From: Cellvibrio zantedeschiae
GTDB taxonomy: Bacteria; Pseudomonadota; Gammaproteobacteria; Pseudomonadales; Cellvibrionaceae
Length of the DNA: 64,000 nucleotides
Assembly: GCF_014652535.1 (NCBI RefSeq)
Contig: NZ_BMYZ01000002.1
Span: 248,001 to 312,000, forward strand
Reading direction: 5' to 3'
Part shown: piece by piece, positions 41,309-42,851 of the stretch
Position numbering within the stretch: position 1 is the first letter of the stretch
Layout of the letters: each line of letters opens with the position of its first letter
Position numbers and translations under genes: made by a program
The notes under the pieces: model-generated
What the model saw: only the letters and a program-made list of their open reading frames with translations
Told to the model about the DNA's origin: nothing
Database searches by the model: none

Positions 41309-41764
41309 ATGTTGTCGGCTAAGGTTTTAGGTGCTGTTTTGGTGGTGGTTTGTGGATGTTTGGTGGCCTGTGGAACGCCCGGCCGCAGCTATACCGATAC
41401 CAAACTGGTGGAAACCCTGGAAATCGAGATTATGCCGAACACAAGCAAGATGTTCGTCTATCGCCTGCGCCTGCCAGAAGACCGAATTGCGAATGGAGTA
41501 AAAGTCGAACGTGGCGGTTTTCAGCGTGGTGATGTTGATCGTGGTGGCGTACCTATCAGCAGCTCCACGCCCAAACGCTTGCTGGAAAACACCGGTTACG
41601 TCGTAGAACGCTTGGGCTACTGTCGCGAAGGTTTTTTGGAAATAGATTCCAGCGTTGCACCTTACAACCTGTGGATGAAAGGCGAGTGCAAAGAAGGCGC
41701 GACTGAAGAAGATAAGAAGAAATTTGGTACGAAGCAAACCTTAGCCGTAACACTCTCCAAGTAG
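41309..41764 (+). CDS. Lipoprotein of unknown function
   Basis: 151 residues. The signal ends in the lipobox LVAC, so the mature protein is lipid-anchored. The rest is beta-rich with two further cysteines (LGYCREG, KGECKEG) that may pair. AGGAG lies before the ATG at a good distance. It has a strong terminator behind it and a divergent gene (flgT) before it. No family recognised. Confidence 0.85.
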   Translation: MLSAKVLGAVLVVVCGCLVACGTPGRSYTDTKLVETLEIEIMPNTSKMFVYRLRLPEDRIANGVKVERGGFQRGDVDRGGVPISSSTPKRLLENTGYVVERLGYCREGFLEIDSSVAPYNLWMKGECKEGATEEDKKKFGTKQTLAVTLSK

Positions 41765-41825: not shown

Positions 41826-41855
41826 AAAAAAACCTGCTCGCAGGCAGGTTTTTTT
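41826..41855. terminator. Bidirectional terminator
   Basis: AAAAAAACCTGC, loop TCGCAG, GCAGGTTTTTTT. It serves the lipoprotein gene and the PEP-CTERM gene. Confidence 0.95.
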
Positions 41856-41873: not shown

Positions 41874-42518
41874 TTAAGCTTTGCGACGACGAGCTGCCAG
41901 AAGACCAGCAAGGCCGAGTCCGAATAGAGCAATTCCCGCTGGCTCTGGAACACTTGTTGTGGGAACGCCAACAGAGGTTGCGCCAAATTTAAAAAGGTGA
42001 GCGGTAGTGTTATCAAAACGATAGCCGCTACCAAACCCAGCTGCAACGATAACGGTTTCGTTGCTGTTTGGGATTGCTGCGCCCCATGTTGTTTGCGCAA
42101 ATGCCGCTTGTACGTCAACCAAGCTGGCATTGTAAGTTCCGTTGGTAACGGTGCCTAGATCATAACCGCTGAGGAAAGGGCGAACTTCACCACTCATAAA
42201 CACTGGAATGCTGGCTATGTTTATGCCGTTAACTTTGCCACTGATATTCTCTTCTCCGCCGCCGCCCATAGCCAATACATAAAAGGTGGTGTCGCCGGGA
42301 GCAAGATCAAATGTTAGAGTTGAAAGCGCCGGAATCTGGTCCATCCAAACTTTGTTGTTTTGGTAAAGCACATTGTTGATGCTTGTTGATGTTCCACCAA
42401 AAATAGCAAAGTCATTGTCAGCAACCATAGAGATGGTGAACGGAACGGCGCTTGCTGCTCCTGCAGTAATAAGCCCAGCAGACAAGGCAATCGCTTGAAT
42501 AAATGTGTTTTTCTTCAT
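41874..42518 (-). CDS. PEP-CTERM sorting-signal protein
   Basis: 214 residues. A signal peptide (IALSAGLITAGAASA) and the C-terminal tripartite signal VPEPAGIALFGLGLAGLLAARRRKA (VPEP, hydrophobic span, basic cluster; here shown for its parts) mark it as a substrate of an exosortase, which is not in this window. The mature domain is small, beta-rich and cysteine-free. AGGGAA lies before the ATG at 42518; the open frame up to 42641 is not coding. Such proteins are linked to exopolysaccharide and floc formation. A sigma-54 promoter lies about 80 bases upstream. Confidence 0.92.
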   Translation of the reverse strand: MKKNTFIQAIALSAGLITAGAASAVPFTISMVADNDFAIFGGTSTSINNVLYQNNKVWMDQIPALSTLTFDLAPGDTTFYVLAMGGGGEENISGKVNGINIASIPVFMSGEVRPFLSGYDLGTVTNGTYNASLVDVQAAFAQTTWGAAIPNSNETVIVAAGFGSGYRFDNTTAHLFKFGATSVGVPTTSVPEPAGIALFGLGLAGLLAARRRKA

Positions 42519-42585
42519 TGGTTTTTCCCTAAGTTGATGATTGAACCAGTAATAACCAACTCTCGCTATGGCGAGACGGCCATCA

Positions 42586-42614
42586 TTTTCTGGGAGCAAG
42601 CAAACCGCATACCA
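42586..42614 (-). promoter_or_regulatory. Sigma-54 promoter of the PEP-CTERM gene
   Basis: On the minus strand TGGTATG-N4-TTGCTT (42598-42614) has GG and GC at exactly the -24/-12 spacing, with pyrimidine-for-pyrimidine changes from TGGCACG. The start point would be near 42588, giving a leader of about 70 bases. The rest of the 333-base gap up to rlmI shows no other feature apart from the unassigned rlmI promoter. Confidence 0.75.
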
Positions 42615-42851
42615 GCGTCCGTATTGCAGGCTTTCCGGCACGTTTGAAATATAGAAACAGGGATGCCTGTTAAATATTTCGACATTTTTACATTCAATTT
42701 GAATTTCGGGCGCTTATGCTGATTAGGTTACGCGCTTCGCCCACCATGAAAGCGTACGTCATCGAGGACAGTGACACGTCCAAATGATTTGGGTGTTCTT
42801 CGTCGATTCTCGATATAATCCGCTCTTTTTCCGCCTTCTTCTGGATTCCCC

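Follow-up and report, generated by a model that had tools for sequence, protein, structure and literature searches.

In the window, the whole stretch of 64,000 nt of Cellvibrio zantedeschiae DNA that was analysed, a gene for a protein with a PEP-CTERM tail raises the question which promoter it uses and under which regulators it falls. A preliminary description assigned a sigma-54 promoter to the gene, noted that PEP-CTERM genes of several environmental bacteria are reported to depend on RpoN and the PrsK/PrsR pair, and proposed that this would tie the protein to an exosortase and exopolysaccharide regulon. Such a dependence agrees with what Haft et al. (2006; PMC1569441) and Xia et al. (2023; PMC9850573) describe in the relevant passages. 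The element in front of the gene belongs to an already known regulon, and the anatomy of its promoter is what the present analysis adds.

The gene and its upstream region

The gene stands between a divergent upstream neighbour (42852, plus strand) and a convergent downstream neighbour (41309-41764, plus strand) and is followed by a terminator (Table 1); it thus forms a single-gene unit. Judged by eye, its product has an N-terminal signal peptide, MKKNTFIQAIALSAGLITAGAASA; it ends in the tail VPEPAGIALFGLGLAGLLAARRRKA, composed of a PEP motif, a hydrophobic stretch and a basic end. This tail scores above the cut-offs of NCBIfam TIGR02595 PEP-CTERM (24.9 bits, cut-off 16) and Pfam PF07589 (29.4 bits, cut-off 20.7), which bears out the designation as a PEP-CTERM gene. 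The protein body without its tail gave no credible match in NCBIfam and Pfam profile searches, a PHROGs search gave no match, and a scan of named genomes found no relative of the protein. AlphaFold models of the protein and its ortholog (see below) had a mean pLDDT of 39.6 and were unusable.

Table 1 Features of the PEP-CTERM locus (positions in the window)
Feature	Position	Strand	Remarks
Intrinsic terminator 3' of the gene	41826..41848	-	CCTGC...GCAGG and T run
PEP-CTERM protein gene, 214 aa	41874..42518	-	Start codon ATG 42518; last base of stop codon 41874
Promoter-to-ATG stretch	42519..42598	-	Inferred start site, hairpin, AGGGAA before ATG
Sigma-54 promoter TGGTATGCGGTTTGCT	42599..42614	-	-24/-12 type; GG and GC spacing as in -24/-12 promoters
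Spacer, 53 nt	42615..42667	-	Short class, without IHF-like or CRP-like site
Haft motif 1, predicted PrsR box TGTCGAAATATTTAACA, 17 nt	42668..42684	-	Located 53 nt 5' of the -24 element

The minus-strand sequence TGGTATG-CGGT-TTGCT matches the -24/-12 consensus and lies 80 nt 5' of the ATG, confirming the sigma-54 site that the preliminary description had placed at the right distance from the gene. The box further upstream, overlooked in that description, is stronger evidence than the sigma-54 site. Haft et al. (2006; PMC1569441) described, in the passages used here, an element made up of motif 1, of 17 nt and ending in TTTACA, and motif 2, of the sigma-54 type, which were read as the binding site of the response regulator PrsR and a sigma-54 promoter, respectively. 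The spacer between the motifs measured 62.8 +/- 10.6 nt (range 32-92) and the distance from motif 2 to the ATG 71 +/- 38.5 nt (range 23-221); the element preceded 99 of 167 proteobacterial PEP-CTERM genes and tracked PrsK, PrsR and PrsT. Both distances in the window fall within these ranges. The window box, judged against the description in the text of that paper and not against its logo, ends in TTAACA, one base off the commoner ending TTTACA. The spacer has five mismatches to the IHF-like site at its usual place in related promoters and five to the CRP-like site. A 6-bp hairpin downstream of the promoter (42576-42561) is absent from the ortholog. A scan for sigma-70-type promoter-like sites found none upstream of the gene, the single one found being inside it.

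Box pairs in the genome and among relatives

A genome search for exosortase and prsK/prsR, as the preliminary description had proposed, found all of them in one cluster (C3:95-124 kb), in which a PEP-CTERM gene lies just before PrsK/PrsR and the exosortase and glycosyltransferase-like genes follow. The genome harbours one exosortase (C3:102051; TIGR02602, 112 bits, cut-off 105.55), which scores below the cut-off of the exosortase A subtype (138 versus 208). PrsK (C3:96939; 576 bits, cut-off 300) and the adjacent PrsR (C3:98999; 697 bits, cut-off 502.6) are encoded, as are RpoN (495.5 bits, cut-off 277.35) and IHF-alpha. A putative O-glycosylation ligase in the cluster scored 115.7 bits, below the cut-off of 188.1. 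Elsewhere an IHF/HU-like gene match (C5:47362-47634) contains an internal TAA and is perhaps a pseudogene. The proposed link of the window protein to the exosortase and exopolysaccharide regulon is supported, with dependence on RpoN and PrsR predicted from sequence.

Taken alone, the sigma-54 consensus carries little weight and is near chance genome-wide, since the pattern TGGYRYRNNNNTTGCW gave 25 matches in the 4.27-Mb genome versus 18 for a backwards control; as sufficient promoter evidence on its own it was rejected. Two of the 25 matches precede PEP-CTERM genes, namely the window gene and a gene at C5:101533. With a sigma-54 weight matrix, the window site scored 15.2, and only two of 127,970 positions of the 64-kb window reached 14, the site included. 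Scanning up to 400 nt (174 nt for one gene) 5' of the 25 PEP-CTERM hits in the genome with this matrix revealed sites of at least 12 before seven genes, all 58-105 nt before the ATG, versus ~0.7 expected (25 x 0.027), and three weaker sites (below 12) at 76-84 nt before the ATG. All ten genes with a sigma-54 site also carry the 17-nt box [TC]GTCG-N6-TTNACA, 52-65 nt 5' of the -24 element. The box alone is likewise near background (25 matches in the genome, 32 in the reversed control). Eleven of these 25 have a sigma-54 site of at least 7.7 at 52-65 nt downstream, the best score among the remaining 14 being 3.4, and ten of the eleven pairs precede PEP-CTERM genes, the window gene among them. 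The pair pattern matched 13 times in the genome and never in the reversed control. The second box, 53 nt upstream, thus excludes chance and is what settles the promoter call.

The expectation that other PEP-CTERM genes would have the same promoter was borne out for nine genes besides the window gene. Of the two findings named beforehand as speaking against the sigma-54 reading, absence of an exosortase did not apply, one being present, and PEP-CTERM genes lacking the promoter were encountered in part (15 of 25 at the stringency used); this is no refutation, because Haft et al. (2006) likewise found the element before only part of such genes. The gene at C1:1017218, PEP-CTERM-like with 14.4 bits versus a cut-off of 16, is probably a real member, since the full box pair precedes it.

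The pair tracks PrsR over 96 genomes. PrsR scored over its cut-off in 57 of them; here the pair pattern matched 188 times (27 times in the reversed control), with at least one match in 50 of 57. The 39 PrsR-negative genomes hold 25 (control 13), with at least one in 13 of 39 (Mann-Whitney p ~1e-9). Outside the genus, 104 matches occur in 38 PrsR-positive versus 13 in 37 PrsR-negative genomes. Exceptions are seven PrsR-positive genomes without a match and two genomes without a PrsR hit, G019 (100% complete) and G002 (85%), with four and eight matches, respectively.

An ortholog of the window protein, 75% identical, was found in only one of 95 relatives, a member of the same genus (G017:C6). It lies between other genes than the window gene's neighbours, flanked, judged by eye, by sugar-utilisation genes, and its upstream DNA is largely unalignable apart from the boxes, BLAST homology beginning ~25 nt before the ATG. 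Both boxes are kept (box TGTCGGACTTTTTTACA) at the identical spacing of 53 nt, which argues that the window box is no accident of one genome. The spacer of the ortholog has five mismatches to the IHF-like site and, at -28, a single weak match to the CRP-like pattern (two mismatches). Joint inheritance of the gene with its switch is probable.

Very probably, the window gene is a single-gene unit for an exosortase substrate that is switched on by PrsK/PrsR through the box and the sigma-54 promoter. PrsK would sense a signal and phosphorylate PrsR, which would bind the 17-bp box and, by looping of the DNA, meet the sigma-54 RNA polymerase at the promoter and activate it through its AAA+ domain. 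An IHF-like bend site probably aids the loop in sister promoters; the copy in the window has the shorter spacing and is without this site. The signal peptide would direct export of the protein, the C-terminal helix would hold it in the membrane, and the one exosortase would cut it, releasing it to the surface or matrix.

It is improbable that the sigma-54 promoter answers to a different enhancer-binding protein, or to PrsR acting jointly with other such proteins. Several NtrC-like regulators are encoded: at E <= 1e-20 the PrsR model finds 11 regions of the genome, of which a single one exceeds the cut-off, and since ten lie below it, the specificity for PrsR is a predicted one. Against such a regulator speak the fact that motif 1 is that of Haft et al., the tracking of PrsR by the pair over the 96 genomes and the scarcity of the pair pattern in genomes without PrsR. 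Still less probable, indeed very unlikely, is that the sigma-54-like site matches by chance alone and another promoter serves the gene. The near-background count of the consensus alone would fit this, but a second box at the right spacing, the nine sister genes and the conservation in the ortholog argue against it, as does the sigma-70-type scan described above. Control by PrsK/PrsR through the box pair is therefore preferred over both.

Spacing classes and further sites in the promoters

For the promoter anatomy, 94 sites were collected, 11 from the window genome and 83 from its genus (all same-genus matches), of which ten were dropped. Seven scored under 7 (L140, L147, L158, L179, L210, L213 and L218) and three were removed by hand despite scores of 7.6-9.0 (L138, L183 and L181); L138 and L183 share a conserved frame with L213 that was taken for a coding region. 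Restoring these three would add spacings of 51, 51 and 67 nt. Among the 84 sites kept, 79 lead into genes with PEP-CTERM or PEP-CTERM-like tails (72 by pattern, seven by eye); the others comprise two cut by contig ends, one before a sugar transferase gene and an orphan pair. The 81 proteins encoded downstream fall into 28 families, and family-level counts are given since the sites are not independent.

The spacings fall into discrete classes of 51-55 nt (12 sites), 60-65 nt (70) and 73-74 nt (2), with none at 56-59 or 66-72 nt; by family these are 7, 20 and 1 families with means of 52.9, 63.5 and 73.5 nt. Outside the genus, 51 of the 117 counted pair matches were fetched, these being the matches listed apart from one overlapping duplicate and two sites of genomes that lack PrsR, and 36 scored at least 7; among the matches listed, their spacings were 48-51 (7), 57 (1), 62-66 (25) and 74 nt (3). 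The helical fit of the genus family spacings peaks at 11.0 (R 0.82; 0.81 at 10.5), and outside the genus, with a short class of ~50 among the matches listed, R is 0.62 at 10.5. A strict helical period of 10.5 bp was only partly supported and not retained; the discrete classes were.

When spacers are aligned at their right ends, they show, at -32/-31 relative to the -24 element, YAANNNNTTGWTW, which we take to be the IHF consensus in reverse. This IHF-like site, allowing for no more than one mismatch within five offsets, occurs in 49 of 84 sites, versus 1.6 (maximum 5) in 200 dinucleotide shuffles; counting forward matches anywhere in the spacers, 46 lie at -32/-31 and others are scattered. Outside the genus it is present in 14 of 36 sites among the matches listed. 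CRP-like sites (TGTGAN6TCACA, at most two mismatches) occur in 36 of 84 (shuffles 2.6, maximum 8), mostly at -58, -49 or -39 to -41, and their position is fixed within gene families (14/14, 6/6, 7/7 and 4/4). In the window genome they lie between box and promoter of two PEP-CTERM genes, in the spacer at C5:101469-101532 (no mismatch) and in that of the promoter at C3:347111 (two mismatches). Neither kind of site was selected for, since the search pattern fixed the two boxes alone. These patterns hint at three novelties: discrete spacing classes, an IHF-like site that most promoters have at one set place and a CRP-like site in some.

The idea that IHF generally activates PEP-CTERM genes was considered and rejected, as the PEP-motif gene GSU1943 of Geobacter sulfurreducens goes up in ihf mutants (PMC7962754, in its Table 2), which speaks against a simple positive role in that species.

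Some elements stand before other kinds of sequence. One, in G013 (C1:2171491-2171585), precedes a gene for an undecaprenyl-phosphate glucose phosphotransferase (TIGR03023, 510 versus 410.75 bits); this would connect PrsR directly with the priming of exopolysaccharide and tie surface proteins and polysaccharide to one switch. Two sites in G031, outside the genus, precede glycosyltransferase-like genes that are EpsE-like below cut-off. The orphan pair, one copy in the window genome (C1:709608-709704, minus strand) and one in G017 (C184:21642-21737), consists of PrsR boxes with sigma-54 sites scoring 14.6, with no credible gene downstream and no credible Rfam family. Some 115-150 nt downstream are conserved between both genomes, the upstream DNA much less, and fold z-scores are -2.7 and -1.5; a small RNA or a decayed gene is possible.

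It may be proposed, with the chances about evenly balanced, that in this order PEP-CTERM promoters act as switches of three or four parts whose loops have set lengths, composed of PrsR box, IHF bend, sigma-54 promoter and, in several families, CRP, of which the window copy is a short-loop form working without IHF, and that gene and promoter travel as cassettes. If so, the IHF bend would be fixed 31-32 nt before the -24 element and CRP would sit at one of three places ~9-10 bp apart, adding control by carbon state in several gene families. The gain is a testable promoter anatomy of PrsR box, IHF-like bend, sigma-54 promoter and sometimes CRP.

Comparison with published systems

Among the papers searched, none named both PEP-CTERM and IHF. 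A sigma-54 regulator near PEP-CTERM genes is reported in passages of another paper (PMC5744179), which do not describe promoter anatomy. Independent experimental support comes from another species: the pepA gene of Aquincola tertiaricarbonis RN12, involved in floc formation, needs RpoN1 according to primer extension and RT-PCR, and its mapped start lies behind a -24/-12 promoter; against control by PrsK/PrsR, a prsK mutant was not complemented by plasmid-borne prsK or prsK-prsR (passages of Xia et al. 2023; PMC9850573). The window gene resembles pepA in its PEP-CTERM tail, its -24/-12 promoter and its organisation as a single gene with a terminator. However, assignment of its product to floc_PepA (NF033554) was rejected, as the score was 35.8 bits versus a cut-off of 80 and the match was gone without the tail.

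The closest likeness is to the element of Haft et al. (2006): both motifs, their order, the spacing range, the distance to the ATG, the single-gene unit and the presence of PrsK, PrsR and exosortase agree. In contrast to that description, the spacings here fall into discrete classes and many members carry IHF-like or CRP-like sites; within this kind, the window copy belongs to the short class without either. The prediction of 2006 is herewith confirmed site by site in a gammaproteobacterial genus.
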